Of a stretch of DNA of 64,000 bases, positions 4,037 through 61,809 are shown piece after piece (position 1 is the first letter of the stretch; each line of letters begins with the position of its first letter). The stretch is from NCBI GenBank assembly GCA_020199775.1, contig JAIVJZ010000003.1, forward strand, positions 1-64,000. The letters run 5' to 3'. The stretch comes from Acidobacteriota bacterium. GTDB taxonomy: Bacteria > Acidobacteriota > Blastocatellia > Pyrinomonadales > Pyrinomonadaceae. The notes under the pieces were generated by a model, which saw only the letters and a list, made by a program, of their open reading frames with translations, was not told where the DNA came from and did not search any database. A program made the position numbers and the translations under genes.

Positions 4037-4160
4037 TCACCGGTGCGGGCACAGAGGAAGCAAACGCGGAAGTGGGAACGCGGAACGATGAACTGAAAGC
4101 AGGGTGCTTTTGCTTCCGCGTTCCCGCTTCCGCGTTTAACTCTCCGTGTCTGCATTGGCG
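4037..4160. repeat. Composite heptamer palindrome, copy 1
   Basis: The inner left arm (4063-4098) reads as successive heptamers AACGCGG, AAGTGGG, AACGCGG, AACGATG, AACTGAA; the right arm (~4112-4137) reads TTCCGCG, TTCCCGC, TTCCGCG and pairs with the first three. Outside them lie a CACAGAGG-type left arm (4040-4060) and a CTCTCCGTGTCTGC-type right arm (4140-4155), the same type seen alone at 34257-34399. So one element appears nested in another. It sits just beyond the stop of the gene at 4179. Confidence 0.75.
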
Positions 4161-4178
4161 AGCGATTTTACGTCAAAC

Positions 4179-4808
4179 TTACCGGACGAGGCCGCCGCCG
4201 CCGCCGCGCGCCTGTAAGCCCATCAGCCGCGCCGGGAAGACGCCGAAGTCCTCGACCTCCCAGGTGTTGCCGTCTCTCAGCCTGACCTTCGCGGCGGGGA
4301 TGAAAGTCCCTTCGCTGTTGCCCCGGCGGCGCAGGAAAATCTCCGCGTAGCCGAACCTGTAGTCCTCCGAGCGCGTCCCGTAGCGCAACTCGTAGAAGTT
4401 GACGTTGCGCTCGTAGAGCACGACGAGTTTTGTCCCGTTCTCCTGCGGCACGGAGATGATCACGTTGGCGTCCACGCCTACGCCGTTGCCAATCGTGATG
4501 CGCCCCGCCTCCATTCGTGAGAGCGTGCGCAGCAACTCTTCCTGCCCGCCCGACTGCAACGCCGCGTTCAACTGCCGCACCTCGTCCGCAGACGTGTAGC
4601 GATTCACGTTGAGCCTGAACGGGGCCGTCCGCCCGCCGAACCGCCCGCCCACGCCGACGACCGTGCCCAGAATCACCTGCTCGCGCCCCTCGACGGCACG
4701 ACCGCCCCTGCGCTGCCCGAGCGCGACCGACCCCGTCTGCAACACCGCGCAGCACAACGCCGCGCAGCACAAGACGCCCAACCAACCCGACAATTTTCTT
4801 CCGCTCAT
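4179..4808 (-). CDS. Secreted protein of unknown function
   Basis: 209 residues from ATG 4806-4808, preceded by GAGGGGGAAG. A clear signal peptide (MSGRKLSGWLGVLCCAALCC...VALGQ) is followed by a mostly beta-looking domain: an early segment GTVVGVGGRFGGRTAPFRLNVNRY, a central RITIGNGVGVDANVIIS and a C-terminal part ending in a Gly-rich tail (GGGGGLVR). The frame is open 34 codons further upstream, but that part holds the ribosome site and reads as non-coding. I do not recognise the family; it is presumably periplasmic or cell-surface. The next gene upstream (4995-5495) is also a small secreted protein, separated by a heptamer palindrome. Confidence 0.75.
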   Translation of the reverse strand: MSGRKLSGWLGVLCCAALCCAVLQTGSVALGQRRGGRAVEGREQVILGTVVGVGGRFGGRTAPFRLNVNRYTSADEVRQLNAALQSGGQEELLRTLSRMEAGRITIGNGVGVDANVIISVPQENGTKLVVLYERNVNFYELRYGTRSEDYRFGYAEIFLRRRGNSEGTFIPAAKVRLRDGNTWEVEDFGVFPARLMGLQARGGGGGLVR

Positions 4809-4917
4809 AGCTTCCCCCTCGTTGAAATTCAAAATTACCCGTCGAAGGGTAATTTTAAGCCCCGGAAGTGCGTAGATTGTCTCGAATATCTTCGGAAGGT
4901 TTGCCGTCATCTAAAAG

Positions 4918-4994
4918 TATGAACGCGGAACGCGGAACGATGAACTGAAAAGCAACTGTTTTCAGTTCATCGTTCCGCGTTCATACTTCATCAT
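4918..4994. repeat. Heptamer palindrome, copy 2
   Basis: Left arm heptamers ATGAACG, CGGAACG, CGGAACG, ATGAACT; right arm TTCATCG, TTCCGCG, TTCATAC, TTCATCA. The loop carries GCAACTGT (4952-4959). The right arm ends at the TAA stop of the upstream secreted-protein gene (4995-4997). A 23-bp core (4928-4950) is identical to copies at 4076, 35517 and 61736. Confidence 0.9.
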
Positions 4995-5495
4995 TTAGTT
5001 CGCGGGCGGCGCGGCGGGGCGGACGCTGATGGTGTTGATGCCGTATGGCTCTTGCGTGTCCAGCGTGAACTCGAAGGTGATCCAGCGCGCGTCTTTCTTC
5101 GTCTGCACGAGCACCTCGAATATGTTTTCGGTCGAGCGCCTCAGGCTGTGCGGTTTGAGGCCGCCGGTTCGTTCGTAGAACTCCGAATCCTTATCCGCGT
5201 TCTCCGGGTCGTCGCCGAAGCTTTCGTGAAAGGCGCGCATCGTCTTGAGGTCGCCGCTGTTGAAGGCGGCGAAGAATTTGGCGACGGTCTTGCCCGCGGG
5301 CGTCTTGGACAACTCTTCGTCGAGCGCGGAGGTCTTTTCGGCGGCCTTCTCTTTGCCGGGCGCGGCCGTCTTTTCCGACGCCCCCGGCTGCTGTTTGTTG
5401 TCGGCGGGCGTCTGCGCCCCGCACACCGAAGCGGCGAACGCGGAGACGATGCAGGCGAGCAGGAGGCGTTTGCAGAGGGCGTTGATCTGTTTCAT
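4995..5495 (-). CDS. Secreted protein with NTF2-like domain (tentative)
   Basis: 166 residues. A signal peptide (MKQINALCKRLLLACIVSAF...VCGAQ) leads to a Lys/Glu/Ala-rich linker (residues ~27-60) and a ~100-residue domain starting TPAGKTVAKFFAAFNSGDLK. The pattern GKxxxxFFxAFNSGDxxxMRxFH is typical of SnoaL/NTF2-like folds found beside secreted peptidases and hydrolases. That fold call is from pattern alone; no catalytic residues can be named. Likely periplasmic. Confidence 0.7.
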   Translation of the reverse strand: MKQINALCKRLLLACIVSAFAASVCGAQTPADNKQQPGASEKTAAPGKEKAAEKTSALDEELSKTPAGKTVAKFFAAFNSGDLKTMRAFHESFGDDPENADKDSEFYERTGGLKPHSLRRSTENIFEVLVQTKKDARWITFEFTLDTQEPYGINTISVRPAAPPAN

Positions 5496-5603
5496 GATTC
5501 TTTACTCCGGGGAATTAAACGTTCAAACTCCCGCAGAGTATCCACGAAACGCGCCCGCCGTTGGTTAAGACGAGGATAAAAGATTGTTAAGGATGTAAAG
5601 AAT

Positions 5604-5680
5604 AGGGATGAGGGATGAGGGATGAAAAGAGAGATTGAATCGCTTGTGTGCTTTTATTTCATCCCTCATCCCTCATCCCT
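5604..5680. repeat. Heptamer palindrome, GGGATGA type
   Basis: Left arm 5604-5627 is three GGGATGA-phase heptamers plus AAA; right arm 5657-5680 is its exact 24-nt inverse complement; loop 29 nt. Different sequence from the GAACGCG family but the same 7-bp build. The right arm overlaps the last codons of the phosphatase gene and encodes its final residues (EGMRDEG). Confidence 0.92.
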
Positions 5681-6366
5681 TCCTCTGCCAGTCGCTTCTT
5701 CGCCTTGCGCAGACGCTTGCCCGGAACGTCGTAGCGGCGCGCAGCCTTGACCTGCACGAACTCGCCGGTCTCGATGATGTAGGCCGTAAGTTCGTAACCG
5801 TAGACACAGCCCGTGTCGAGCCCGATGGCGTGCTTCCCCCGGCGCACCACCGGATGAGGCCAGTGGCCGAACAGGATGGTCTGCGCTCCGTCATAAACTT
5901 CGTACCACGGCGTGCCCTTCGGCGTTTTGGCCTTCCCTTCCAGAGAGCGCAGTTCGGTCAAATCTTTGGCCGACTGGTCTTCGAGCGCGACGCCGGGACG
6001 CAAGCCCGCGTGGACGACGAGGTGCGCACCCAGATCGAGCGTCAGGGGCAGTGATGCGAGATAAGATTCGTAACGCTCGCGCCCGCTTTCGAGTTCGACG
6101 TGGCAGGCGTGCTGTTGCTCGTTCAGTTTTTTCTTCTTGCCGCGCCAGTAGCGCAGGATGGCGCGGTCGTGGTTGCCGAGCACGGAGGAGAAGCGCGCGT
6201 CCGACATGAAGAGTTCGAGCACCTCGCGATTGCGCTCGCCCTTCACGATCAGATCGCCGACGGCGATGATGCGATCAAACGCGCCCGCCTGAACCTTGTC
6301 GAGCAACGCCAGAAGTTCCTCGTAACAGCCGTGGATGTCGCCGATGACGATGGTTCGTGCGGTCAT
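5659..6366 (-). CDS. PPP-family metallophosphoesterase (ApaH/PrpE-like)
   Basis: 235 residues. The metal-binding and catalytic blocks of PPP phosphatases are all present in order: GDIHG (residues 8-12), GDLIVKG (~37-43), GNHD (~64-67), a His in VVHAGL (~117) and FGHWPHP plus LDTGCVYG (~165-190). The family hydrolyses phosphoproteins or diadenosine tetraphosphate with a two-metal site; which substrate applies here is not clear. The protein is cytosolic. Its last seven residues are written by a heptamer palindrome (5657-5680), so its natural C-terminus has probably been altered. A promoter-like GTTAAAATC lies ~44 bp upstream. Confidence 0.9.
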   Translation of the reverse strand: MTARTIVIGDIHGCYEELLALLDKVQAGAFDRIIAVGDLIVKGERNREVLELFMSDARFSSVLGNHDRAILRYWRGKKKKLNEQQHACHVELESGRERYESYLASLPLTLDLGAHLVVHAGLRPGVALEDQSAKDLTELRSLEGKAKTPKGTPWYEVYDGAQTILFGHWPHPVVRRGKHAIGLDTGCVYGYELTAYIIETGEFVQVKAARRYDVPGKRLRKAKKRLAEEGMRDEG

Positions 6367-6408
6367 GTTCTTCTCACACTGATTTTGAGCCGGGTGAATT
6401 ACGCACCG

Positions 6409-6426
6409 GATTTTAACGCATGCGGC
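6409..6426 (-). promoter_or_regulatory. Candidate promoter or shared site upstream of phosphatase
   Basis: On the minus strand this reads GCCGCAT-GC-GTTAAAATC, with TAAAAT (6410-6415) as possible -10, 44 bp before the start. The same 18 bp with only the middle two bases changed lies at 24555-24572, again ~45 bp before a start. No clear -35 is seen. Confidence 0.5.
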
Positions 6427-6472
6427 ACGCTGATGCGCAGGACGCGGAAGGCGCGGGACGGCGCGCCGCCGG

Positions 6473-6478
6473 TATAAA
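6473..6478 (+). promoter_or_regulatory. Candidate -10 of sixA
   Basis: TATAAA in CCGGTATAAAGTG, about 72 bp upstream of the sixA ATG. The -35 is not obvious. A weak AAAAGT/ACTTTTTTT stem (6498-6533) lies between it and the gene and could attenuate. Confidence 0.35.
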
Positions 6479-6549
6479 GTGCGCTGCCCTTCGTGCTAAA
6501 AGTTCTCGAAGCGTTTTCCCGAAACTTTTTTTAAAGCTTTCACGCGAAC

Positions 6550-7074
6550 ATGAAAACACTGCTTTTGCTCCGCCACGCGAGACCGACCCAGTCCAGCCCG
6601 ACCGGGCGCGACTTCGGCCGCCCGCTCGCCGACGAAGGACGCGCCGACGCGCTGCTCGTCGGCCAATTTCTCCGGCGCAGAAAATTAACACCCGATACAA
6701 TCGTCTGCTCGCCCGCCGCACGCGCGCGAGAGACCGCCGACCTCGTCATCGAAGCCGCGCAACTCGACGCGCCGCTGCTTTTCCACGAAAGCATCTACGA
6801 AGCGAGCACGGAGCAACTGATCGAAGTCGTCTCGGAAGTGGAAGACAGCGCCGACGTGGTTCTCATGGTCGGCCACAATCCCGGCCTCCAGTCGTTGCTC
6901 GAACGCCTGACGGGCGAGGGCGCGGCCATGACTCCGGCCACGCTCGCGCGCATCGATCTCGACATAGACGCGTGGAACGAGCTGCGACGCGGGGCGCAAG
7001 AAGAAGAAGAAGAAGAAGAAGAAGAAGGGCGACTCGTCTTCGCCTTCCCGCCGCAAGCTCTAGCAGGACATTGA
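6550..7074 (+). CDS. sixA: Phosphohistidine phosphatase SixA-like
   Basis: 174 residues. The histidine-phosphatase signature is LLLLRHARPT at the N-terminus (His 9 is the nucleophile), with R in the SPAARARETADLV block (~residues 56-66) and the second catalytic His in VLMVGHNPGL (~residue 102). Members remove phosphate from phosphohistidine, for instance on HPt domains. It carries an unusual run of nine Glu near the C-terminus, encoded by nine uninterrupted GAA codons (7000-7026), absent from typical SixA. No Shine-Dalgarno is apparent before the ATG. Confidence 0.9.
   Translation: MKTLLLLRHARPTQSSPTGRDFGRPLADEGRADALLVGQFLRRRKLTPDTIVCSPAARARETADLVIEAAQLDAPLLFHESIYEASTEQLIEVVSEVEDSADVVLMVGHNPGLQSLLERLTGEGAAMTPATLARIDLDIDAWNELRRGAQEEEEEEEEEGRLVFAFPPQALAGH
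7000..7026 (+). repeat. (GAA)9 trinucleotide tract in sixA
   Basis: Nine perfect GAA codons in a row within a GC-rich gene that otherwise prefers GAG and GAA mixed. In frame, so slippage would change the length of the poly-Glu tract without breaking the reading frame. Confidence 0.95.
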
Positions 7075-7083
7075 ACGACTCTC

Positions 7084-9678
7084 TCAAGGGGCGCGCAACA
7101 CCGCGAGCGGCTTGCGCGTGAGCGCGTCGAAACTTGAGAGCGCGCCGACGGCCGCGACCAAGAGGACGGTCGCGCCGAGCCCCACGAAGTAGAGCCACGG
7201 CGTAAAACTCCACGGTATTTCGAACACGAAACGCGAGATCGAATACGAGAGCGCGATGGCCGCGAGCGTGCCGACGAGCCCCGCCGTCAGACCGAGCAGG
7301 CCGTACTCCGCGAGCATGATCGAGAGCAGCACTTTGCGCTTCGCGCCGAGCGTCTTCAAGACCGCCGCCTCGTAGACGCGCTGCCACTTCGTCATCGCAA
7401 TCGAGCCGACGAGGATGAGCACGCCGCTCAACAGCACGAACCCGCCGATGAACGACACGGCCAGCGTCACGTTGTTCAAAATCCGCGTCACAGCGCGCAT
7501 GATGTCGGCCACGTCGATCACGGAGATGTTCGGGTACTTGTCCAGCAGTGCGCGTTGGAAGCGGCCGCGCTCCGCATCAGTCGTGGGGCCGTTGATGGGC
7601 GCGATCAACATCTGCGGCGCATTTTCCAGCGTGCCCGGCCGGAAGAGGACGAGGAAGCCCGTGCGCGAGTTGCGCCAGTCAACACGCCGGACGCTCGTGA
7701 CGCGCGCCGTCAGGCGGCGACCCGTGATGTCGAACGTGATCGTGCCGCCCAGATCGAGTCCCGCCAGCCCGATCATGCCCTCTTCGACGGACACCTCGGG
7801 TTCGCTCGACGGCGCGGCGTCCCAGAACGTTCCCGCGACAATCGTCTCGTTCTCTTCGAGTTGCGGCCTGTAGGTGACGACGTACTCGCGCCCCAGCATG
7901 CCACGTTGCGGGCGTCGCCCTTTGTCGTCGAGGTCGATGCTCTGCCCGTTGATCGCGGCGATGCGCATGCGCACCGTCGGGACGAGCGTGGGGCGTTCGC
8001 CCGTCGCCCTCGTGATCAACTCTTCGACGCCTTCTTTCTGATCCTTCTGCACGTCGATCAAAAACATGTTCGGCAACTGCGCCCGCGCCGCCGGGTCGAA
8101 CTCGCGCACGAGATTCTTTTGCAGCGATTGCGTCGCGATGACGAGGAACGCGCCCAGCCCGACGGCCAGCACCACGACGCGCGTCTGGTTGCCCGGCCGG
8201 TACATGCTGTTGACGGCGTGCCTGAGGGCGAACGAACGAACGTGGCGCGCGCGCCGGACGAGGTGGATGACGAGCATCGCCGTCAGTTGCAGCGCGCCCG
8301 CCGTCAGCGCGAGACCCGCCATGAAGAACGCGCCCACGCGAATCGAACCCGCCTGCCACGCCGCGAGCGCGAGGAGCCCACCCGCGACGCCGAGCCCGAC
8401 GAGCGCACGCGTCAGGCCGATCAGGCCGATGCGCCTCGGAGATAGCGCGCCGCGCAGACGCCCTAACCAATTAACGTTTGTGTCGGCCACCCCGGCGTCG
8501 CCGCCCGCTGCGTCTTCGCGCAGCAGCATGTTCGGTTTGATGTGGCGCACGCGCAGGAGCGGCAGCGCGGAGAACAGCAGCGAGATGAGCAGGCCGAGCG
8601 CGAGCCCCTGCGCGATTGCGCCCGGCGTCAAGTCGTAACTCATGTTAGGGGGAAGCGTCTCGCTGAAACGGCGCGCGACGAACAGCAACGCCGCCCGCGC
8701 CAGCAAGACGCCGAAGAGACTGCCCGCGAAGCCCAGCGCGAGCACCTGCGCCAGATACACGCCCGCGATCATGCGGCTCGACGCGCCCACGCATTTGAGC
8801 ACGGCGATGGTGCGCTTCTTCTGTTCGATGAAGACGCGCGTCACGTTCGACACGCCGATGCCGCCGAGCACGAGGATGACCAACCCCGTCAGCGACAGGT
8901 AATTTTCCGAGCGCGTGTATTGTTCGTTCAACCCTTCCTGCGAATCCCTGTACGAGCGCACGCTGACGAGGCTCTCTTTCAGCCCCGCGCGCAAATCCGC
9001 GACGAGCGCGTTCAACTCCGCGGGCGGCGCTTTCATGAGAATCTTGTTGCGCGCGCGACTGCCGAAGCCCGTCAAACCCGTCGCGGCGATTGCGCCGCGC
9101 GCGATGAAGACGCGCGGCCCGATGCGGAAGCCGCCCGTCGCGCCCGGCTCCTGCGCCGTCACGCCGCGTATCTGAAACGTCGAGTTACCGATCTTCACTT
9201 CGTCGCCGACCTTCAAACTCAGGCGTTCGAGCAGCGACGCGGCGACGACCACGCCGTCGTTCTCCAAGAGCGCGTGTGTGAATTGTTCGCCGTTCGCCAG
9301 CGTGAACTCGCCGTAGAGCGGGTAGGGCGCGTCGATCCCCTTCAACTCGACCATCAACGCGCCCTCGCGCGCGTCGTCGGCCGGGCGGAGCATCGTCGAA
9401 GCCTCGATGGTCTGCGTCTCGGCCGCGACGCCGTGCGCGGCGGCGATGCGCTTGACGACGGCGAGCGTCGCGTCGTTTATCTCGCGCGACGAATCAACCT
9501 GCACGTCGGCGGTCAGGATGTTGCGCGCCTCCGAGACCATCGCCGCATTCACGTTCTGGATGGTCGAACGCAGCGCGACGATTGCGCCGACGCCGATGCC
9601 GATGCACAGGAAGAAAAAAAGCAGACGCTTCCACGAGGAACGTATTTCGCGCCGCGCCATCCGCCAGATGAATTTCAT
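7084..9678 (-). CDS. ybbP: ABC exporter permease, YbbP/FtsX type
   Basis: 864 residues. A first membrane segment (LLFFFLCIGIGVGAIVAL, ~19-37) is followed by a large extracytoplasmic domain, an FtsX-type three-helix block (~265-385, with the LKCVGASSRMIAGVYLAQ coupling helix), a further helix group (~420-470), a second external domain and a C-terminal FtsX block (~735-855, LKTLGAKRKVLLSIMLAEYG). This duplicated FtsX layout is that of YbbP. Its start overlaps the ATPase stop by 4 bp (ATGA, 9675-9678). Together with tesA in divergent position it reproduces the gene neighbourhood tesA/ybbA/ybbP known from E. coli. Substrate unknown; lipid or envelope export is the common suggestion. Confidence 0.92.
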   Translation of the reverse strand: MKFIWRMARREIRSSWKRLLFFFLCIGIGVGAIVALRSTIQNVNAAMVSEARNILTADVQVDSSREINDATLAVVKRIAAAHGVAAETQTIEASTMLRPADDAREGALMVELKGIDAPYPLYGEFTLANGEQFTHALLENDGVVVAASLLERLSLKVGDEVKIGNSTFQIRGVTAQEPGATGGFRIGPRVFIARGAIAATGLTGFGSRARNKILMKAPPAELNALVADLRAGLKESLVSVRSYRDSQEGLNEQYTRSENYLSLTGLVILVLGGIGVSNVTRVFIEQKKRTIAVLKCVGASSRMIAGVYLAQVLALGFAGSLFGVLLARAALLFVARRFSETLPPNMSYDLTPGAIAQGLALGLLISLLFSALPLLRVRHIKPNMLLREDAAGGDAGVADTNVNWLGRLRGALSPRRIGLIGLTRALVGLGVAGGLLALAAWQAGSIRVGAFFMAGLALTAGALQLTAMLVIHLVRRARHVRSFALRHAVNSMYRPGNQTRVVVLAVGLGAFLVIATQSLQKNLVREFDPAARAQLPNMFLIDVQKDQKEGVEELITRATGERPTLVPTVRMRIAAINGQSIDLDDKGRRPQRGMLGREYVVTYRPQLEENETIVAGTFWDAAPSSEPEVSVEEGMIGLAGLDLGGTITFDITGRRLTARVTSVRRVDWRNSRTGFLVLFRPGTLENAPQMLIAPINGPTTDAERGRFQRALLDKYPNISVIDVADIMRAVTRILNNVTLAVSFIGGFVLLSGVLILVGSIAMTKWQRVYEAAVLKTLGAKRKVLLSIMLAEYGLLGLTAGLVGTLAAIALSYSISRFVFEIPWSFTPWLYFVGLGATVLLVAAVGALSSFDALTRKPLAVLRAP

Positions 9679-10466: not shown

Positions 10467-10467
10467 G
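10453..10467 (+). promoter_or_regulatory. TATAAT promoter of tesA; probable leaderless start
   Basis: A perfect -10 hexamer TATAAT (10453-10458) is followed after 6 bp by the tesA ATG (10465), so the expected transcription start coincides with the A of ATG. No Shine-Dalgarno is present. The palindrome CATG (10464-10467) supplies both the tesA ATG and, on the other strand, the ybbA ATG. The -35 region is weak. Confidence 0.7.
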
Positions 10468-11674: not shown

Positions 11675-11711
11675 TTCATCACTCCACATTCATCACCCCA
11701 CATTCGTCACT
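11675..11711. repeat. Single-arm heptamer tract
   Basis: TTCATCA, CTCCACA, TTCATCA, CCCCACA, TTCGTCA in direct succession: a 14-bp period built of two heptamers, ending at the TGA of the NHL-LytM gene. No matching inverted arm is present, so this may be a half-element. Confidence 0.7.
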
Positions 11712-13968
11712 TGCCTTCGATCCTGATCTCCACGTCGCGCCCGGCGGTTGCCTCGTTGCCGTGATAGTCGGCGGCGATGATGCGGAGGGTGTAGTCGCCT
11801 GTCGGCAAGTTTGACGTGTCCCACACGGAGCGCGCGGCGCGGCCGTGGCGGACGACGTTCGTCGTTTCGTAGAGGAAGCGCGTGGACTTGCTGCCGTAGA
11901 CGGTGATGCCGCTCTCGTCGGCGTAGGCCACTTTGACGGCTTCCATCTCCGGCGGCATGCGGTCGAATTCGAGCGTGATGCGCGGCTGCTCGAAGCCGGG
12001 CGCGGGCGTGCCGTCGGGGCGGAGCAACCCGTAGCCGAGTTTGTAGAGGCCGAGACGGCGGCGCGCCTGATTGCCGTCAACCTGATCGTAGGCGTCAACC
12101 ACGATGCGTACCTGCCCGCCGACGAGCAGGCGGCCGTCGCGTTTCTCCGTGAGACGCTGACCATTGGACGCGTCGAAGAGTTGCACGCCGTCGCGCTCGA
12201 TCTTGGGCGCGACCGTGTCCGTGAAGCCGACGAGCGGGAGCACGAGCGGGTTCAGTTCGGCGTTCGGCGCGCCGAAATTCATGTGGACGTGATACATGCG
12301 ATTGACCGTGCCGAGCGCGTCGCCCACGCGGAAGCGTGTTCCGCGTTTGATGCGGACGCGCGTGAGTTTCCCCTGCGCGTCGCGCTGCGGCGCGAAGCGC
12401 GCCTCGTCGATCAACTCGTCCCGCTCGCTGCGCCCGGCGCGCAGGTGAACGTAAGTCATCACGCCGACGCGCAAGCCTTCGTTGAGTTCGCCGTGTCCCC
12501 AGTTGGTCAGCGGGCTCTCGACCTTTTCATCCAGAACGGCGCGCACGGTCTGGCCGTAAGTGCCGAAGATGTCTATGCCGCTGTGCAAATGATGGCGGCT
12601 GTCTGTGGTGTCGTAACTGCCGCGCACCTCGCCGAGCGTCGCGGCCACTTCGTGCCAACTTTCTTGCGGGTCGAGCGGCCACGGCAGAGACTTGACGCCG
12701 AGCGCGTCGGCCGACAGGCGCGGCAGCACGTCGCCCAGTTCGGCGGGCGGCGCGGCATCGTTCGCGGGATCGCCCGGCAACGAGGGTGCGCCTTGAGTCG
12801 AAGCGTTTTGCGTCGAAGCGTCTTCCGGCGTTGCCGCGCCGTTCGTGGCCGCGTTGTGCGTAGTCGTCGCTCCCCCGGCGGCGGCGGTGGTTAACTTGCG
12901 CACGAGATAGTTTGCGCTGTCGGCAACGTACAACGCGCCGCTTTTATCAACCGCGATGCCCGCCGGTTGGTTGAAGCGGGCGGTCGTTCGCCCGTCGCCG
13001 TTCGAGAAACCCGCGCCCGTGCCCGCGATGAGGTGCGCCGTCGTGCGGCCGTCGGGCGCGAGTTGCCAGATGCGGTTGCGCTCGCGCTCCGCCACGTAGA
13101 GAAAATTATCGTGCGTGAGCGCGAGTCCCACCGGCTCGAACGCCCCGTCGAACTGCGAACCGTCGGCGGGCGCGGGGTTGAGCGTCGAGACCTGACCATC
13201 TTTCGACAGCTTGCGCAGGCGACGGTTGCCCGTGTCCGCGATGAACAACTCGCCGTCCGCGGTCGCGACGAGGGCGCACGGCGTATCGAACAGCGCGACG
13301 CCGCCCGCGCCGTCCGCGTAGCCGGGCGCGTTGCCGCCCGCGATTGTTGTCACCTGGCCGTCGGCCGTCGTGATCAAACGGATGCGGTCGTTGTAAGTGT
13401 CTGCGACGTAGACGCGCTCGCCGCGCGCGTCCACGGCGACGCCGACGGGCGCGTTGAACTGCGCCGCGTGTGCCGCGCCGTCGCGCGCGCCCGGCGTGCC
13501 GTCGCCCGCGAGCGTCGTCACCAAGCCTTCGGGCGTCACTTTGCGAACGCGGTTGTTCGACGTGTCTGCGACGTAGAGGTTGCCGTCCGCATCGGCGGCG
13601 AGGGCGGAGGGCGTGTTGAAAGAGGCCGCGCCGCCCGCGCCGTCTGAGAAGCCTTCCGCGCCGCCCGCGAGCGTCGTCACAATCGCGCCCTCGGCGGCGA
13701 TCTTGCGTATGCGATTACTGTCGCCCGCGTCGGCGACGTAGACGTTTCCGCGCCCGTCAACCGCGACGCCGAATGGGTTGTGGAAACGCGCCCCGGCCGG
13801 GACGGCTGCGTCCGTCGCGCCGGGCGCGCCGTCGCCCGCGAACGTGGCGACGGCGGCGTGCCACCCGGCGACGGTCGGCGTCGGGCGGTCGCGCAGTCGA
13901 TAAAAGATGAAGACGGCGACGCCGGCTAAGATGAGCAGGAGCGCGAGCGGAAGGAAGCGTTTGAACAT
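11707..13968 (-). CDS. NHL-repeat propeller fused to LytM/M23 peptidase-like domain
   Basis: 753 residues. An N-terminal membrane anchor or signal (FLPLALLLILAGVAVFIFY, 4-22) is followed by five or six NHL repeats (~40-370) of the type FNxPxGVAVDxxGNVYVADTxNxRIRK. After an Ala/Thr linker (~375-420) comes a domain with HSGID (HxxxD) and HVHMNFG (HxH), the zinc ligands of M23/LytM peptidases (~455-570). The last ~180 residues are beta-rich and end without a recognisable motif. M23 enzymes cut peptidoglycan cross-bridges; both ligand pairs are intact, so activity is possible. The fusion of an NHL propeller to M23 is unusual. Confidence 0.82.
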   Translation of the reverse strand: MFKRFLPLALLLILAGVAVFIFYRLRDRPTPTVAGWHAAVATFAGDGAPGATDAAVPAGARFHNPFGVAVDGRGNVYVADAGDSNRIRKIAAEGAIVTTLAGGAEGFSDGAGGAASFNTPSALAADADGNLYVADTSNNRVRKVTPEGLVTTLAGDGTPGARDGAAHAAQFNAPVGVAVDARGERVYVADTYNDRIRLITTADGQVTTIAGGNAPGYADGAGGVALFDTPCALVATADGELFIADTGNRRLRKLSKDGQVSTLNPAPADGSQFDGAFEPVGLALTHDNFLYVAERERNRIWQLAPDGRTTAHLIAGTGAGFSNGDGRTTARFNQPAGIAVDKSGALYVADSANYLVRKLTTAAAGGATTTHNAATNGAATPEDASTQNASTQGAPSLPGDPANDAAPPAELGDVLPRLSADALGVKSLPWPLDPQESWHEVAATLGEVRGSYDTTDSRHHLHSGIDIFGTYGQTVRAVLDEKVESPLTNWGHGELNEGLRVGVMTYVHLRAGRSERDELIDEARFAPQRDAQGKLTRVRIKRGTRFRVGDALGTVNRMYHVHMNFGAPNAELNPLVLPLVGFTDTVAPKIERDGVQLFDASNGQRLTEKRDGRLLVGGQVRIVVDAYDQVDGNQARRRLGLYKLGYGLLRPDGTPAPGFEQPRITLEFDRMPPEMEAVKVAYADESGITVYGSKSTRFLYETTNVVRHGRAARSVWDTSNLPTGDYTLRIIAADYHGNEATAGRDVEIRIEGK

Positions 13969-24572: not shown

Positions 24573-24593
24573 GTGCGGGGGAAAGCAGAGAGA

Positions 24594-24711
24594 AACGATG
24601 AACGATGAACGCGGAATGATGAACGCGGAACACGGAATGATGAACCGGAGAACCACGCGGCCGCTTGAATCGTTCAGTTCATCGTTCATCGTTCCGCGTT
24701 CATCGTTTCGT
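24594..24711. repeat. Heptamer palindrome, copy 3
   Basis: Left arm: AACGATG, AACGATG, AACGCGG, AATGATG, AACGCGG, AACACGG, AATGATG (24594-24642). Right arm: TTCATCG, TTCATCG, TTCCGCG, TTCATCG (24678-24705). The arms are similar but not exact inverses, as if heptamers were gained or lost on one side. The right end abuts the TAA of yjfF (24712-24714). Confidence 0.9.
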
Positions 24712-31304: not shown

Positions 31305-31466
31305 AAGTTTCAAGTTTCAGGTTTCAAGTTTCAGGTCAGAAGCTTTCAAGTTTCAGGTTTCAAGTTTCAGGTCTGAGGTTCTAAGTTTTCCAACTTGAAA
31401 CCTGCCCCTGAAACTTGAAACTCCACTTCTTAAACTTGAAACCTGAAACCTGAAACTTGAAACTCC
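31305..31466. repeat. Heptamer palindrome, AAGTTTC type
   Basis: Left side is a run of AAGTTTC, AGGTTTC and near variants (31305-31382), right side the inverse set GAAACTT, GAAACCT (31390-31463). The whole 160-bp gap between ytfQ and ytfR is made of it, from the ytfR ATG to the ytfQ stop. It is inside the operon, so it is transcribed. Confidence 0.92.
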
Positions 31467-35502: not shown

Positions 35503-35586
35503 GAACGATGAAGTCGGAACGCGGAACGATGAACTGAAAGCAAGCTGTCTGTACTTCATCGTTCATCGTTCATACTTCATCGTTTA
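35503..35586. repeat. Heptamer palindrome, copy 4
   Basis: Left arm GAACGAT, GAAGTCG, GAACGCG, GAACGAT, GAACTGA; right arm TTCATCG, TTCATCG, TTCATAC, TTCATCG. It fills the gap from just before lacI to the end of galK and overlaps galK: the codons for the last residues (NDEV) and the TGA lie in the right arm. Core 35517-35539 is identical to three other copies. Confidence 0.92.
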
Positions 35587-55046: not shown

Positions 55047-55095
55047 AACTTCTTCCCTACACTCTCCGCTCTCAGTTTCTCGCCCGATGTGCGAT

Positions 55096-56340
55096 CTAAT
55101 TTCTAGTCAGCGCGACAATCGGATCGAGCCGCGACGCTTTATAGGCCGGGTAAAGTCCGGCGACCATGCCGATGCCGCCCGAAGACAGAACCGAGAGCAG
55201 AACGTAGCCGATGGTGATCGTCATCGGGATCGGGGTCGTCGCCGAGATGAGCGCGGCGAGGGCGGCGGCGAGCAGCAGGCCGAGGATGCCGCCGAGCGCG
55301 CACAGCGTCGAAGACTCGATCAGGAACTGCATCATGATCTGCTTGCGCCGCGCGCCGAGCGCCTTGCGCAGACCGATCTCGAAGGTGCGTTCCGTCACCG
55401 ACACGAGCATGATGTTCATCACGACGATTGCGCCGACGACGAGCGAGATGAACGTGATGGGCACGACGACGGCCGCAATCGCCCCCGTGAATTCGTCGAT
55501 CTGGCCGCCGAGTTCTTCCGTGTTGACGAGGCCGAAATCGTCCTCCTCGCTGCCGACGAGTTGGTGATAATTTCTGAGCGCGGTGCGCGCGTCTTCAATC
55601 GTGTACTGGAAGGTCTCGCGCGACGCGCCTTTGCCGTGAATCTGGATGTCGCGCGGTCGCCCGTAGATGCGCCCGAAGGTCGAGAGCGGGATGTAGACGT
55701 GTTTGTCCACGAGGTCGCCGAAGATGGGGCCGCGTTTTTCTTCCACGCCGACGACGCGCAGGGGCAGCCCGCCGACCTTGAGAGTTTTTCCGATGGGGTC
55801 TGTGTCGGGGAAGAACTTGTCTTTGATGTCGCCCCCGAGCACGACGACGAGCGCGCCGCTCTCCTCCTCTTCGGGCTGGATGAAGCGGCCGTCGCTCATC
55901 GTCTTGTCTTCGATGTCGCCCATGTTGGCCGTCACGCCGAAGACGATGCCGCCGTAAAAGCTCTTGCCGTCCTGCTCGAAGCTCGACCCGCGCCCGGCCT
56001 GCGCGCCGACCATCGCGCATTGGGTGCAGTGCTGGCGGAGCCATTCCATGTCCAGGTAACTGAGTCGCGGGTTGCGCCGCTGGCGACGCTCCAACTCCTC
56101 TTCCGACATCTCGCCGGAATTCGCCATGCGCGCGATCATGAAGTGGTTCGAGCCGAGCATCTTCCCGACCTTGTCGATGACGTAAGTGTTCAGCCCGCTG
56201 ATCGCCGCGCCGACGACGACCACGGACGCCACACCGATGATGATGCCGATCAAAGTCAGGAAGGCGCGCAGCTTGTGCGCGAAGATGGAGGAGAGCGCGA
56301 TGCGCGTGGCGTCGAGATAAAAGGTGTAAACGTTTCTCAT
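55096..56340 (-). CDS. MacB-like ABC permease (first of pair)
   Basis: 414 residues from ATG 56338-56340 (no clear Shine-Dalgarno). Same layout as the next gene: helix at ~25-50 ([20 protein letters not shown]), periplasmic domain, FtsX block with [20 protein letters not shown]. The two are tandem paralogues 49 bp apart and may form a heterodimer. Confidence 0.9.
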
Positions 56341-56728
56341 AAAGCTGGAAGAAACCGGAGTGCGTCGGAACCGGGTCGCGAATGTATACGACGAAGCGGC
56401 GCGGAAGGTTTGCGGAACCTTGCGGCGCGCTCCCGTCCTGCGTCCCGCACGCCGCGACGGCCGGGCACAGGCGCGAAAAAAGCCCGCCCGCGCCTGAACG
56501 CGAGACGCTGCCGCTGACACCTTAAACGCCGGGGCGGGCGGCTTATTAACACGAATCGAGAGGTTGGAATTTCAGAGTGCGCCTGAACCGGCGGGCAACG
56601 AATCGTGAGAGTTGGATCAAGCCCGCGTGACGTTATCTCTCTATCCTGCGTTTGTTGTTCTCGCCGGATTCGTACTGCCGAGACTTTGCGCGCGCGACGA
56701 GGCCGCGCACTCGGCCGAAAGGAATCAG

Positions 56729-57358
56729 ATGCCCGCAAAATCTTCAACCGCCGCGAGCCTTTCGCGTCTCGCGCCTTTTGCGCCCGGCGGCGCGCCCGAT
56801 GCCTTGCGCGTCATCATCGAGACGCCGCAGGGCAGCCGCAACAAGTTCGACTACGACGAGGAACTCGGCCTCTTCAAACTCGGCGGCGTGCTGCCCGCCG
56901 GGGCAGTCTTCCCCTTCGACTTCGGCTTCGTCCCGTCCACCACGGGCGGCGACGGCGACCCGCTCGACGTGCTCGTGCTGATGGACGAGGCGGCCTTCGC
57001 CGGTTGCCTCGTCGAAGCGCGCCTCATCGGCGTCGTCGAAGCCGAGCAGACCGAAGAGGACGGCGTGGCGACGCGCAACGACCGCCTGATCGCCGTGGCC
57101 GCAAACGCGCGCAACCACAAAGAGGTGCGCTCGCTCGGACAACTGAACGGGAATTTGTTGGACGAGATCGAGCACTTCTTCGTCTCTTACAACGAAATGA
57201 AGGGGAAGCGGTTTGAGCCTTTAGGACGTTTCGGGCCGGAGCGCGCGCGGCGTGTGATCGAAGAAGGCGCGCGCCTGTTTCGCGCCGGCCGAAAGAAGGC
57301 GGGCGCGTCGAAGAAGGCGCGGAAGAGTTCGGGCGGCGGGACGAAGCGGCGGCGGTAA
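56729..57358 (+). CDS. Family I inorganic pyrophosphatase, diverged
   Basis: 209 residues from ATG 56729 (AAAGGAA upstream). The metal-binding signature GDGDPLDVLVL is intact and the fold order FDYDEELGLFKL ... FPFDFGFVP ... RNDRLIAVA ... LLDEIEHFFVSYN follows family I. Compared with E. coli Ppa, the Arg 43 position appears to be Gly, Tyr 55 is Phe, Lys 104 is Arg and Lys 142 is Asn (by eye). It ends in a basic Lys/Arg tail. Hydrolysis of pyrophosphate is expected but activity may be lower. Confidence 0.82.
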   Translation: MPAKSSTAASLSRLAPFAPGGAPDALRVIIETPQGSRNKFDYDEELGLFKLGGVLPAGAVFPFDFGFVPSTTGGDGDPLDVLVLMDEAAFAGCLVEARLIGVVEAEQTEEDGVATRNDRLIAVAANARNHKEVRSLGQLNGNLLDEIEHFFVSYNEMKGKRFEPLGRFGPERARRVIEEGARLFRAGRKKAGASKKARKSSGGGTKRRR

Positions 57359-57407
57359 TCCGCGCGCGGGGCGGGCGCGAAAAACTTTCGCCCGGACACA
57401 AAAAGAG

Positions 57408-57446
57408 GAGAAGCCGCGACACTTTCGTCCGTGTCGCAGGCTTCTC
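57408..57446. terminator. Hairpin between convergent pyrophosphatase and rpsU
   Basis: 15-bp stem with one bulged base (GAGAAGCCGCGACAC and inverse), 8-nt loop, followed by CTCTC. Probably the shared terminator. Confidence 0.65.
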
Positions 57447-57475
57447 TCTCGTGTGGAGCGCAAGCGGGTCTCGGT

Positions 57476-57685
57476 TTAGCCGCGCGGCTGGGCTTGCGGC
57501 GGGCGGCGTTTCTTCTTGTTGCGCTTGCGGGCGAGGGCGGATTTGAGTTTCGCCTTTTGCCCCTTCGACATGAAGAAGGCGTGTTTCTTCGCGTCTTTGA
57601 TGATCTCTTCGGTCATCACCTTGCGCTTGAAGCGGCGCAGCGCGCTCTCAATCGATTCACCTTGGTTGACGTTAACGGTTGCCAT
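57476..57685 (-). CDS. rpsU: Ribosomal protein bS21
   Basis: 69 residues, the family's normal length: MATVNVNQGESIESALRRFK, then RKVMTEEIIKDAKKHAFF and a basic tail. Needed for translation initiation on the small subunit. Confidence 0.97.
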   Translation of the reverse strand: MATVNVNQGESIESALRRFKRKVMTEEIIKDAKKHAFFMSKGQKAKLKSALARKRNKKKRRPPQAQPRG

Positions 57686-57811
57686 CTTATCTCCTGCTCT
57701 AAATTCTACGCGCGAAAGGCTTCCTCAAAAGTTGTTCGCGCGTGTTCGTTCTTCTCTTTGTTAATCAAAAACTTGCTAAAGGTCAAGCGGCGGGCGCGTG
57801 GAAGTCGCGCT

Positions 57812-58168
57812 TTACGTCGCGGCGCGGCCGTGGACGAGGCGGCGCATGCGATCCGAAAAGAGCACGTCTATTTTCTTCGGCTCGACGAGCGCCATCACTT
57901 CGCCGAGCCCGTAGGTCGGGTGGAGCATGGTCTGTCCGGCGCGGTAGGTGCGCGTCCAGTCGTAGGGCGTGCCGGTCTGCGCGCCTGCGCGCGTGCCCGC
58001 CGCCTGCGCGCTGTTTTTGAACGCGCTGCGCGTGCCGCACTTCGGGCAGTTGACGCGCGAGATCGACCCGCGCTTCGTCACCGTGGCGACGACGTGGCCG
58101 CGTTCCTCAGCGCACGCCTCGCACCATTTCTCCACACGGTCGCCCACGGCGTAAGTCTGTTTCTCCAT
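57812..58168 (-). CDS. Zinc-ribbon plus CarD/UvrD-tail-like (Tudor-type) small protein
   Basis: 118 residues. Cys pairs CEAC (16-19) and CPKC (41-44) form a zinc ribbon. After a linker (~50-68) comes YRAGQTMLHPTYGLGEVMAL and DVLFSDRMRRLVHG, matching the G-x-V-x-H-P-x-F-G-x-G-x-V barrel found in CarD, TRCF and the UvrD C-terminus (DUF3553-like), which contacts RNA polymerase or DNA. Lies between rpsU and infA on the same strand. Function unknown. Confidence 0.75.
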   Translation of the reverse strand: MEKQTYAVGDRVEKWCEACAEERGHVVATVTKRGSISRVNCPKCGTRSAFKNSAQAAGTRAGAQTGTPYDWTRTYRAGQTMLHPTYGLGEVMALVEPKKIDVLFSDRMRRLVHGRAAT

Positions 58169-58184
58169 AAAATCTCCGCGGAAA

Positions 58185-58250
58185 GTGAATCGTGAATCGT
58201 AAATCGAAAAAACTGTTCTCTCTATTCACGATTTACGATTTACGATTCAC
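58185..58250. repeat. Heptamer palindrome, GTGAATC type
   Basis: Left GTGAATC, GTGAATC, GTAAATC; right (inverse) GATTTAC, GATTTAC, GATTCAC. One heptamer differs between arms. It ends next to the infA stop (58252-58254). Confidence 0.9.
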
Positions 58251-58251
58251 C

Positions 58252-58473
58252 TCATTTATATCTGTAAGTGATCCGGCCTTTGGACAGATCGTAGGGGGAC
58301 ATTTCAACCTGCACGCGGTCGCCGGGGAGGATGCGGATAAAATTTTTGCGCATCTTGCCGCCGATTTGCGCCAGCACGATGTGCTCGCTGTTATCCAGAC
58401 GGACACGGAAGAAGGCGTTGGGCAGTTTATCTACTACGACGCCCTCGGCCGGAATGAGATCATCTTTAGCCAA
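58252..58473 (-). CDS. infA: Translation initiation factor IF-1
   Basis: 73 residues: [48 protein letters not shown]. Full-length S1/OB fold. Stand-alone, not next to ribosomal protein operons such as rpmJ. Confidence 0.97.
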
Positions 58474-58719
58474 ACAAAGTCTCCTTTGGTTAAATCAAGC
58501 GCGACTGCGCCCGTGGAGGGAACGCCCGTCACGCTTTACCCGAAGTTGGCGAACGAGTTTGAGGAGTTTATCCGAGGGTTCTCGTCGCCATGTTGTTGTG
58601 CCCGCCGACGGTCGAAATCTTGACACCGAGAGCGCCCCGGCGACCGTGAACTTCCATCGCGTGGGGCGCTTCTCCGGTGTTGCTCTCGAAAGCGATCTAA
58701 ACTGACGCCGACTGACAGG

Positions 58720-59115
58720 TTACCAACGCGGCTCGCGGTCTCCGCCGCCGCCGCCATAACCGCTGCCGCCGCCACGGTTGCCGCCGCCACCGCCGCCGTA
58801 GCCGCCGCGTCCGCCACCACCGCCGCCGTAACCGCCGCGTCCACCGCCGCCGCCGCCGCCGCGATCTTCGCGCGGGCGGGCTTCGTTGACGCTCAGGTTG
58901 CGACCGTTGAAGTCCTTGCCGTTAAACTGCGTGATGGCCGCTTCGCCCTCTTCTTTGCTCGCCATTTCGACGAAGCCGAAGCCGCGCGAGCGTCCCGTAT
59001 CCCGATCCATCACGACCGAAGCCGACTCCACCGTCCCGACCTGTCCGAACAGTTCCTGCAAGTCTTCGCCCGTAGTTTTGAAATTGAGGTTGCCGACGTA
59101 AAGTTTCATTGACAT
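58720..59115 (-). CDS. Glycine-rich RRM RNA-binding protein
   Basis: 131 residues. One RRM (1-82) with RNP2 LYVGNL and RNP1 RGFGFVEM, then a Gly/Arg/Tyr tail (GGRGGYGGGGGGRGGYGGGG). Bacterial Rbp proteins of this form are cold-responsive RNA chaperones. Start MSMK; either Met is possible, GGAGGG lies upstream. Confidence 0.93.
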   Translation of the reverse strand: MSMKLYVGNLNFKTTGEDLQELFGQVGTVESASVVMDRDTGRSRGFGFVEMASKEEGEAAITQFNGKDFNGRNLSVNEARPREDRGGGGGGGRGGYGGGGGGRGGYGGGGGGNRGGGSGYGGGGGDREPRW

Positions 59116-59288
59116 AACTGAAATCCCTCCCCCGTGGGAGCGTGAAGAGAAGCTCGAATGCTGTTTGGCTTCGTGAACGGATAGCAGCGAAGTCGCGTCT
59201 TCGGAATGCCCTGACGAGCAGCTTCTGCAAGTTAATACCGGCCTGCTCTCGAACTATCCAGACGCCGCCGCTTGGCTCTCCACAGCGC

Positions 59289-59321
<33 letters not shown>

Positions 59322-59354
59322 GTAGACGGCAGATATTATGCCTTGTGTGCGAAA

Positions 59355-59434
59355 AAAAGGCAAAAGCCCCGAACGGGTCAGAAACACCCAAGCCGGGCGG
59401 CTCAGGCAACACAACCCGGCCACCCGTTTTTAAC
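59355..59434. ncRNA. Structured intergenic element, possible regulatory RNA or double terminator
   Basis: On the plus strand ACGGGT...ACCCGTTTTT closes an inner GCCGGG...CCCGGC stem; at the left end GGCAAAAGCC stands next to a seven-A run. Read on the minus strand it ends GGCTTTTGCC and TTTTTTT. So both strands finish with a U-run. It matches no riboswitch I know. Strand and function are open. Confidence 0.4.
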
Positions 59435-59758
59435 ATCTTATACGGCGCGATAACACTCTCTTTTGCGCCGCCGCATAAAGAGTCCGGCGCGCGAAACGCC
59501 CCCACCGGGTCGCCGTCGCCGTCCGCCGTTATCTCTTAACCGCAGCGCAGATTTCCCGGCCGAACGCCGCGTTTTCTGCTTAACCCGGCACACACCAAAC
59601 TTCGTACACGCGCGCAGGCAGGAGAGCCGTCCGCCGCCGCGTTTTTCTTTCGGGTGACGGCCGCCTGCGACCGTCTTCCGGGCAGCCGCGACCGTCTTTC
59701 GCGCTTTTCGCCGCGTGAACTGTAGCGGCACAGCCATTGCCACAAGTAAAAGGGTCTA

Positions 59759-59800
59759 AGTTTCCATCTCCAAGATTGATAGTTTCCATCTCCAAGATTG
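59759..59800 (+). repeat. 22-bp tandem direct repeat upstream of SGNH gene
   Basis: AGTTTCCATCTCCAAGATTG occurs at 59759-59778 and 59781-59800, 22 bp apart (two helical turns), 18-59 bp before the ATG. Looks like paired regulator sites or a leader repeat. Confidence 0.75.
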
Positions 59801-59817
59801 TCAGATTCAGCAAGCAC

Positions 59818-61716
59818 ATGAAATTTAAAACTCTCGCTCTCGCCGTCACAATTTTCGCCCTGCTCTTCGCCGTCCGTCCGGCCGCCGCGCAGGCGCAAAC
59901 ATGGCAATACACCGCGCTCGGCGACTCGCTCGCCGCCGGATTGAACGACTCGCAGGGCGGCTACGCCGCGCGCTACCGCAACTACGTGCAGGCCGACACG
60001 GGCGCAACCGTCAACCTTGTCAACAAGGGCGTTTCCGGCTTGACGAGCGCAGGACTCCTCAACGCGCTGCGTACCGACGACACCTTGCGCGCGCAGATCG
60101 CCAACTCGCAGATCGTGACATGGAACATCGGCGCAAACGATTTTCAGGACGCCGTCGCACGCTACCAGAGCGGCACGTGCGGCGGCGCGGACAATCAGGA
60201 TTGCATCAGGGCGACGGTCGCCAGTTTCAAAGCCAACTGGAACGCCATCATCGCGCAGATACTCTCTCTGCGTAGTCCCTCGAACACCATCATTCGCACG
60301 ATGGACAACTACAACCCGGCCGTCGATCTGGCGCGGGTGTTCGGCTTCCTCCCCGTCATCAAGCCTTACCTCGACGACATCAACCGCTTCATCATCCTCA
60401 GCGCGATTAACAACCGCATCGCCCCCGCGCTCGTCTATCAGGCGTTCAACGGCCTCAACGGCGAACTCGATGCGGGAAGACGCGGTTACATCTCTGCGGA
60501 CGGCATCCACCCGAACGACACCGGCCACGACATCATCGCCGGCCAGTTCCGTGCGACCTCTTACCAGCCGCTCGTCACGCCGCAGAGCGTGTTCAACATC
60601 GCGTTGCCCCTCACGCAGGTCAGCGAAGGGTCAGGGCGCGCGACCATCATCGTCAACCGGCTCGGCAGCACGAGCGGCGCGGCCTCGGTCGAGTATTCGA
60701 CGACTGACGACTTCTCTTCCGTCCCCTGCGCCGCGCCCCCGGCCGCCGACGGCGCGATAGGCGTGGCTTACCCGCGCTGCGATTACGCGACGACCGTTGA
60801 CACGCTGCGCTTCGCCGACGGGGAGACGCAAAAGACTTTCACCATCCCCATCATCGACGACGCGCACGTGGAAAACTCGGAGGAGTTTGCCATCCGGCTC
60901 AACCAACCGGCGGGCGGGGCGCTCGGCGTGCGCTCGACGGCCAACGTTCGGATCATTGATAACGAACTCAGGTTTGATCCTCCTGTCGCCTTGCCGAACC
61001 CGATTCACTCAAGCGGTTTCTTCGTCCGCCAGCAATACCTAGACTTCCTCTCGCGCGAGGCCGACTCCCAAGGCTTCGACGCGTGGATGGGCGTCCTCAA
61101 TCGCTGCTCGGACGTAAACGATAATCCCGAATGTGAGCGCGCAACCGTCTCCGCTTCATTCTTCCGCTCGCGGGAGTTTCAACTCAAGGGCTACTTCGTC
61201 TATCTCTTCTACAAGGTCTCGCTCGGCCGCCTGCCGCTCTACGCCGAGATCATTCGCGACATGCGGCGCGTGACGGGTGAGACGGCCGAAGAAGTTTTCG
61301 CCAAGCGTCTCGCCTTCGCCAACGCGTGGGTCGAGTTGCCTGAGTTTAAGGAACGTTATTCCGAAACTCTTTCTCACGAAGCGTTCGTGGACAAGCTGCT
61401 GCAAGCCACCGGCATCGCGCTTGGCGGGAGCGCGGCGGTGACGCGCAACTCTCTGGTCAACGATTTAAACACCAGAACGAAAACGCGCGCGGAAGTGGTC
61501 ATGGCACTCGTCGAGCACCCGTCGGTTGACGCACGCGAGCGCAACGGCGCGTTCGTCGCCATGCAATACTTCGGCTACCTCCGGCGCGACCCCGAAGCCG
61601 CGGGCTACAACGCCTGGCTCGATTATCTGAACGCCAACCCCGACGACTTCCGCACGATGGTCAAGGGCTTCGTCAACTCGACCGAGTATCAACTGCGCTT
61701 CGGGCAGGTACGGTAA
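59818..61716 (+). CDS. Secreted SGNH hydrolase with Calx-beta and DUF4214 domains
   Basis: 632 residues from ATG 59818. Signal peptide to ~26 (RPAAAQAQ). SGNH domain: ALGDSLAAG (Ser ~36), NIGANDF, DGIHPNDTGHD. Calx-beta domain ~250-375 (NIALPLTQVSEGSGRATIIV). Two DUF4214 units follow: FVRQQYLDFLSREADSQGFD and FVAMQYFGYLRRDPEAAGYN. Probably an extracellular esterase bound to the surface. No Shine-Dalgarno seen. Confidence 0.87.
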   Translation: MKFKTLALAVTIFALLFAVRPAAAQAQTWQYTALGDSLAAGLNDSQGGYAARYRNYVQADTGATVNLVNKGVSGLTSAGLLNALRTDDTLRAQIANSQIVTWNIGANDFQDAVARYQSGTCGGADNQDCIRATVASFKANWNAIIAQILSLRSPSNTIIRTMDNYNPAVDLARVFGFLPVIKPYLDDINRFIILSAINNRIAPALVYQAFNGLNGELDAGRRGYISADGIHPNDTGHDIIAGQFRATSYQPLVTPQSVFNIALPLTQVSEGSGRATIIVNRLGSTSGAASVEYSTTDDFSSVPCAAPPAADGAIGVAYPRCDYATTVDTLRFADGETQKTFTIPIIDDAHVENSEEFAIRLNQPAGGALGVRSTANVRIIDNELRFDPPVALPNPIHSSGFFVRQQYLDFLSREADSQGFDAWMGVLNRCSDVNDNPECERATVSASFFRSREFQLKGYFVYLFYKVSLGRLPLYAEIIRDMRRVTGETAEEVFAKRLAFANAWVELPEFKERYSETLSHEAFVDKLLQATGIALGGSAAVTRNSLVNDLNTRTKTRAEVVMALVEHPSVDARERNGAFVAMQYFGYLRRDPEAAGYNAWLDYLNANPDDFRTMVKGFVNSTEYQLRFGQVR

Positions 61717-61809
61717 AAAAATAACGATGAAGGAGGAACGCGGAACGATGAACTGAAAGACAGTTGCTTTCAGTTCATCGTTCCGCGTTCCTCCTTCATC
61801 GTTATTTTT
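61717..61809. repeat. Heptamer palindrome, copy 5: perfect 43-bp arms
   Basis: Arms 61717-61759 and 61767-61809 are exact inverses; loop ACAGTTG. Heptamers AACGATG, AAGGAGG, AACGCGG, AACGATG, AACTGAA. It starts at the base after the SGNH TAA and runs over the TAA of the kinase gene (61802-61804). A-run left and TTTTT right make it a likely bidirectional terminator. Confidence 0.97.

Follow-up and report, generated by a model that had tools for sequence, protein, structure and literature searches.

Gene-end palindromes of tandem heptamers in an Acidobacteriota genome: probable gene-less copies of a hairpin element that carries S23 genes

The first 64,000 nucleotides of contig JAIVJZ010000003.1 (GenBank assembly GCA_020199775.1, an Acidobacteriota bacterium of the Pyrinomonadaceae; forward strand, hereafter the window) contain intergenic palindromes whose arms consist of tandem heptamers of several unlike classes. 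The same type of seven-letter tandem repeat forms the arms of hairpins that enclose genes of the S23 family (PF05635), and the palindromes are thus probably gene-less copies of a selfish, mobile hairpin element, the fuller form of which holds an S23 gene between like heptamer arms. Its predicted insertion sites are the ends of genes and the loops of palindromes already in place. In the following, G000 is the window's own genome, and G001 and G002 are genomes of the same genus (congeners); the genomes compared are incomplete assemblies.

S23 genes between heptamer arms

S23 genes, located by tblastn, lie within heptamer palindromes in several phyla. At C11:465090-465514, a palindrome of class A (GAACGCG/GATGAAC) surrounds an open reading frame (ORF) with matches to PF05635 (70 bits) and to the solved protein 2rld, which has five chains. 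In relatives from the same taxonomic class, inverted period-7 arms flank 36 of the 49 evaluable S23 loci (50 minus one at a contig end), and the period is 8 or 9 in 4; in the control, made up of 117 own genes of 250-600 nt, such arms were found once. S23 loci in genomes of other phyla, picked by a GTGACRA match, have period-7 arms in 18 of 30 cases and period-8/9 arms in 6, two of which (L332 and L346, both of period 8) are near-identical copies. In a sample from the order of a Lysobacterales genome, 22 of the 30 loci listed have period 7 and 1 has period 8, and some of these arms are GGGAATC- or GGGATTC-like. Together, 76/109 loci stand in inverted arms of period 7 and 11/109 in arms of period 8-9. 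Nineteen units with a best period of 7 span 428-517 nt.

PF05635 is present in 23 of 24 non-Acidobacteriota genomes picked by a GTGACRA match (taken from at least 80 loci with three GTGACRA heptamers), in none of 14 control genomes, and in 73 of 200 genomes of the Lysobacterales genome's order. The S23 coding sequence is under purifying selection, with a ratio of nonsynonymous to synonymous differences (pN/pS) of 0.04-0.37 in 8 pairs, synonymous sites being saturated in 5 of them. A same-strand ORF ends 0-234 nt ahead of 28 of 33 S23 genes (a count made without a control), and at L312 the S23 ATG directly follows the host stop codon.

Lone arms of one class were also considered as brackets of larger inserts. 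This idea was rejected: four inverted pairs of lone arms lie at most 6 kb apart, and the single long one is the pair that holds S23. The same count entered a comparison with miniature inverted-repeat transposable elements (MITEs). Separately, palindromes of 8-bp units (CTTTGCGC / GCGCAAAG) were seen at C40:59149-59226, C11:305230-305330 and C11:414354-414451; some S23 genes elsewhere likewise have arms of 8 or 9 bp.

Heptamer classes shared with gene-less palindromes

S23-bearing and gene-less palindromes of one genome have heptamer classes in common. S23 arms score 11.4/14 against gene-less palindromes of their own genome and 9.6 against those of other genomes (Wilcoxon p = 0.002; permutation of genome labels p = 0.0005), and 14 of 20 S23 arms have a gene-less partner of the same class in the sample. 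These 20 are the copies with an arm pair in eight genomes; armless copies and 5 S23 matches below the family cut-off were excluded. Median arm lengths are 28 nt for gene-less palindromes (84 arms) and 31 nt for S23 units (34 arms). Across 540 cross-genome pairs from 34 loci, heptamer similarity increases with S23 identity (r = 0.30, p = 0.0002).

Four S23 copies of G000 are above the cut-off, three with arms of classes A, B and G and one with none. At the L312 site, occupied by a class A S23 unit in G000, the congeners G001 and G002 have 58 and 48 nt, within which no inverted repeat of at least 12 nt was found. At L287 the class B S23 unit of G000 has gene-less palindromes as counterparts in both congeners. 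The flanks of a G002 S23 site (L280, GTGACRA class) were partly found in G001 and not found in G000.

Palindromes of the window

Nine elements were examined in the window, as follows.

4037..4160, unstranded: class A palindrome; core arms 4062-4085 / 4114-4137, 24 nt, 96%; 41 nt separate it from the stop of minus-strand gene 4179-4745
4914..4996, unstranded: class A palindrome with a 7-nt loop; abuts the stop end of minus-strand gene 4995-5495
5604..5680, unstranded: class D palindrome (GGGATGA) with perfect 24-bp arms; overlaps the stop end of gene 5659-6366 (-)
11675..11711, unstranded: lone heptamer array, with no second arm and hence not a palindrome; at the stop end of gene 11707-13968 (-)
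24592..24710, unstranded: class A palindrome; no element found at the same junction in G001 or G002
31305..31464, unstranded: class B palindromic array (AGTTTCA/GGTTTCA)
35504..35584, unstranded: class A palindrome; G001 and G002 have the GTGACRA class at the same junction
58185..58250, unstranded: class C palindrome (GTGAATC/GTAAATC); G002 has related [GA]GTRAAT arms
61710..61816, unstranded: class A palindrome with 50-nt arms, 94% complementary; sits between convergent stop codons

A preliminary description had listed all nine as palindromes with 7-bp periodic arms. Eight are such palindromes at the places given there, and 11675-11711 is a single array. Its observation of a shared 23-bp core was borne out, with exact copies at 4075, 4927, 35516 and 61735 (+) and a fifth copy at 61769 (-), as was that of contact with stop codons, since 7 of the 8 palindromes end at most 22 nt from one, overlaps included. 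Several unlike heptamer classes do have an architecture in common, being palindromes of period 7 at the ends of genes, which chance does not account for. All nine elements are too short to hold an S23 gene. The same heptamer classes are present on contigs titled Pyrinomonadaceae.

Period and abundance

A genome-wide search with the 23-bp core, allowing up to 3 mismatches, gave 78 + 74 matches, and 0 with the reversed pattern. Among 93 strong inverted repeats collected from 464 kb irrespective of period, the best period is 7 in 66; the excess of period 7 over other periods is genome-wide. Arms of these repeats match themselves at 65% of positions at lag 7; for the remaining lags up to 20, with 14 excepted, the value is 20-34%. 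A larger sample of the own genome (583 kb) gave 118 strong inverted repeats, 84 of them with period-7 arms, which extrapolates to about 850 period-7 elements per genome. Stretches of 30 genomes, many of them picked around one operon, gave 217 inverted repeats, of which 148 have a best period of 7, where shuffled arms would give 3.5; this count includes one fully masked stretch (G028), whose single inverted repeat is an artefact. The G011 stretch has 2 palindromes in 17 kb.

Placement at gene ends

In the same 583 kb, an element is present in 83 of 446 gene junctions: 49/238 with both genes on the minus strand, 23/103 with both on the plus strand, 9/53 convergent and 2/52 divergent. Co-directional elements lie at most 10 nt from the upstream stop in 49 of 72 cases. 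Of the 43 such elements whose gap leaves more than 20 nt to spare, 26 overlap the upstream stop or come within 10 nt of it, a number expected to be 6.5 and never above 15 when placement was randomised 10,000 times; the next start is as near in only 4. Among 81 host stops within 60 nt, 29 fall inside an element. In the operon at C40:74672-91831 an element occupies 10 of 14 gaps, and in most cases the next start codon is no more than about 20 nt away. A Shine-Dalgarno-like motif precedes the downstream start in 10 of 39 cases with an element at most 25 nt upstream and in 123 of 261 without.

Supply of stop codons in three frames was tried as a role for the heptamers. All three frames are stopped in 19 of 84 arms (3.1 expected after shuffling), but 26 of 84 have no stop at all (15.6 expected), and three-frame stop supply is therefore not general.

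Kept sites and changed classes in congeners

Sites of elements are kept between congeners, while their classes change. Of the 446 gaps, 60 could be compared with G001 and 89 with G002 (one of the latter longer than 700 nt), both neighbouring genes being required on one contig; the counts rest on our own gene caller and detector. Between G000 and G002, 19 junctions are occupied in both, 3 in G000 only, 1 in G002 only and 65 in neither (Fisher p = 3e-15). At two of the four discordant junctions (C40:85561 and 106031), class F arms are visible by eye in both genomes, and the detector thus understates the agreement. G000 and G001 give 15 in both, 2, 0 and 43 in neither; for G001 and G002 the figures are 12, 1, 0 and 39. 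The class is kept at 6 of the 19 junctions shared by G000 and G002 (at least 12/14 bases) and different at 13 (at most 10/14), and it is changed at 4 of the 12 shared by G001 and G002. More generally, the same junction in relatives often has a palindrome of another heptamer class, and some junctions are empty. Gene-end hairpins thus present a case in which the site is inherited and the sequence overwritten.

Individual junctions illustrate the change. At the 31305 junction three congeners have three classes (class B in G000, GGTCAGT/TGTCCGT in G001, AGCAGTA/AGCAGTG in G002). At C40:65107 the flanks are unchanged, with class B in G000 and G001, and GTGACGA with an inner GTGAATC element in G002. 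At the 5604 junction a GTCAGTT/GTCCGTG palindrome stands between GGGATGA arms in G001, and the GGGATGA palindrome is plain in G000 and G002. Nested pairs were recognised by eye in G002, G017 and G026; a strict nesting script, which missed these pairs, returned a single pair in G000 and a further pair in G002, its third row being a single-class variant.

Three side observations concern junctions. At operon junction g2/g3, near-alike GGATTGC palindromes are present in G001 and G027, which belong to two genera, and class A in G000 and G002; the likeness may reflect transfer, retained ancestry or contamination. The gap at C11:340768-340846 is chimeric and non-palindromic: its left part is a GTGACAA array and its right part a CATCCCT array, such as recombination between two classes might leave. 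A divergent gap holds a selenocysteine tRNA (tRNA-Sec; L034:14303-14397 (-), Rfam RF01852, 67.8 bits) and, in all three congeners, a heptamer palindrome too. The window itself has no Rfam match, and five further loci gave tRNA-Sec only.

Alternative explanations

The strongest alternative is that the palindromes are functional gene-end hairpins, selected as strong mRNA structures for 3'-end protection, partial attenuation or RNase III processing, with structure alone mattering and classes interchangeable. Conserved occupancy with an altered class at most shared G000/G002 junctions is what such selection would give, and the 74 elements near stops have a mean fold energy of -48 kcal/mol. Partner arms also match each other better than they match arms of other copies in classes A and C (p<=0.0002; class B p = 0.35); the inverted-repeat filter favours such a match, which makes this result weak evidence. 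However, S23 genes between the arms, nested palindromes, junctions empty in relatives and the dispersal of whole classes with shared loops are not explained in this way. Selection on the hairpin is therefore unlikely as the primary cause, although as a secondary role it is compatible with the element being mobile.

A second alternative makes the S23 genes hitch-hikers that entered pre-existing heptamer palindromes, themselves products of slippage and template switching. In its favour, heptamers are proposed to promote slippage of the polymerase (Mrazek 2007, cited in PMC4679880), the number of heptamers is variable, and a complete gene-less palindrome flanks the class B S23 copy on one side. 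This is harder to reconcile with shared loops and the dispersal of classes, with the L312 unit at a site that is palindrome-free in both congeners, and with the covariation of S23 and heptamers, and we consider it distinctly improbable.

Intrinsic terminators, acting in both directions between convergent genes, would likewise be strong hairpins after stop codons, and of 74 elements, 24 have at least 5 T among the 10 nt that follow the stem (control windows: 47 of 449). The T-rich tail is absent in the other 50, however, and elements are frequent within the C40 operon described above, close to the next start, where termination would silence the downstream genes; this explanation has very little probability. 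Mobilisation of REP-like elements (repetitive extragenic palindromes, REPs) by a Y1 transposase of the RAYT type is scarcely credible: short dispersed extragenic palindromes near stop codons do recall REPs, but PF01797 was not found in palindrome-rich G001, G002 and G012 (G000, G003, G014, G017 and G027, also rich, have 2-4 copies), and it has 9, 13, 9 and 13 copies in G004, G015, G024 and G034, without a palindrome in 19-20 kb of each.

A probable mobile hairpin element and its proposed mechanism

A mobile hairpin element with S23 in its fuller form probably accounts best for these observations. By its proposed mechanism, the S23 ring may read its own class of heptamers, either in single-stranded DNA or in folded RNA, and would aid host enzymes in copying the hairpin to new sites. 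Insertion just after a stop codon would be harmless and would provide S23 with transcription and coupled translation, while the transcribed hairpin would be tolerated or trimmed by RNase III, by analogy with the intervening sequences (IVSs) of 23S rRNA. New arrivals in the loops of residents, together with decay of the outer arms, would cause the classes to turn over.

Several results weigh against the mobile element. No transposase, integrase or reverse transcriptase gene was seen in the S23 unit, and selection for the hairpin could be the cause of conserved occupancy. Below 60% identity, S23 identity and heptamer similarity are weakly correlated (r = 0.14, p = 0.016), and the correlation could arise from physical linkage alone. 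For class C, the third commonest in G000, no S23 copy was found in that genome. Gene-less loops of class A are similar to the inner ends of the S23 unit of that class (14.4 and 15.1, where the interior averages 11.9 and reaches 13.2 at most), but some loops from other classes come close there, with scores of up to 14.0, and class B loops are unlike the inner ends of the class B unit. Descent of gene-less loops by deletion is thus not shown, the case being weak for class A and negative for class B. Nor is there a clear relation between S23 copy number and palindrome density in the small stretches compared, many of them around one operon: G001 and G003 are palindrome-rich with no S23 at E<=0.001, and G004, G015, G024 and G034 have 9, 13, 12 and 6 S23 copies with 0 palindromes in 19-20 kb each. 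A simple dosage effect of S23 is unsupported by this comparison.

A wider proposal is put forward tentatively, as less likely than not. S23p might be the founder of a superfamily of mobile elements without a transposase, its pentameric four-helix ring reading about one 7-nt unit per protomer and driving the copying of hairpins to gene ends and hairpin loops. The rRNA IVSs, the GGGAATC repeats of Xanthomonas, the TAACTGA and cyanobacterial STRR heptamers and the window palindromes would then be branches of it, and a protein-heptamer code would have diversified into many classes. With these findings, S23 proteins gain a candidate partner in the tandem heptamers beside their own genes. Matched and mismatched class pairs occur naturally and empty-site comparisons are available, so that binding and mobilisation are directly testable.

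Other repeats

A second dispersed family of intergenic palindromes, without period 7 (GGGGACAAGCCCTGCCCCTAC), occurs at window positions 3900-3955 and at C40:140275-140345, C40:158293-158363 and C11:492841-492899. The segment at window positions 1-320 recurs in tandem, in steps of about 276 bp, in G001:C145 and G002:C49. At 59759-59800, near the start of gene 59776-61716, a 22-bp unit is present in 1.9 exact tandem copies.

Comparison with known systems

Avd of the diversity-generating retroelements has the same fold as S23, and the STRR sequences of cyanobacteria are intergenic tandem heptamers with a patchy distribution.

REP elements and the bacterial interspersed mosaic elements (BIMEs) are extragenic palindromes, part of them near stop codons, as here (PMC3733652, PMC12306157). 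They differ in that tandem heptamers are not mentioned in the available parts of their descriptions, and the elements studied here show no relation to counts of Y1 transposases.

TAACTGA heptamers are intergenic and tandem, with a patchy distribution and indels in steps of 7, mostly in direct arrays near start codons, and an excess of heptamers was reported by Mrazek (cited in PMC4679880). Palindromic arms and S23, both present here, are not described in the available part of that paper (PMC4679880).

The GGGAATC heptamers of Xanthomonas and Nostoc come closer. They lie between aligned ORFs and are under-represented between divergent ones, mostly at most 50 bp from stop codons, or overlapping them, downstream of ORFs; they form 70-75 inverted pairs per genome and were described as one G-rich quadruplex repeat (PMC4692102). 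Period 7, intergenic position and inverted pairs close to stops are shared with the present elements, which however include classes that are not G-rich, the window sequences belonging to other classes. No link to S23 was found in the available part of that description (PMC4692102), whereas here S23 genes, likely of that order, stand in such arms.

The closest counterpart of the fuller form is the 23S rRNA IVS of Coxiella burnetii, which has 428 nt, a 28-bp stem, an S23p ORF in the loop and three GACAGAT heptamers whose number varies among strains; it is excised by RNase III and has been called a selfish element (PMC4990558). According to the same paper, no function is known for S23/IVP proteins, and S23p of X. 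campestris is a homopentamer (PMC4990558). The S23 units found here resemble this IVS in their size of about 430 nt, in having a long terminal stem with the S23p ORF in its loop, and in tandem heptamers of variable number. They are unlike it in being dispersed at stop codons of protein genes outside 23S rRNA, with many heptamer classes per genome and mostly gene-less copies.

Among the best matches listed, no literature joined S23 genes with dispersed heptamer palindromes, most subscription journals lying outside the coverage. The suggestion in the preliminary description of a perhaps undescribed element class is thus to be narrowed: the pieces are already in print (PMC4692102, PMC4990558, PMC4679880), and what is new is their union. 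The element is not wholly undescribed; known fragments are joined into one element, to which scattered reports of bacterial heptamer repeats are now tied.

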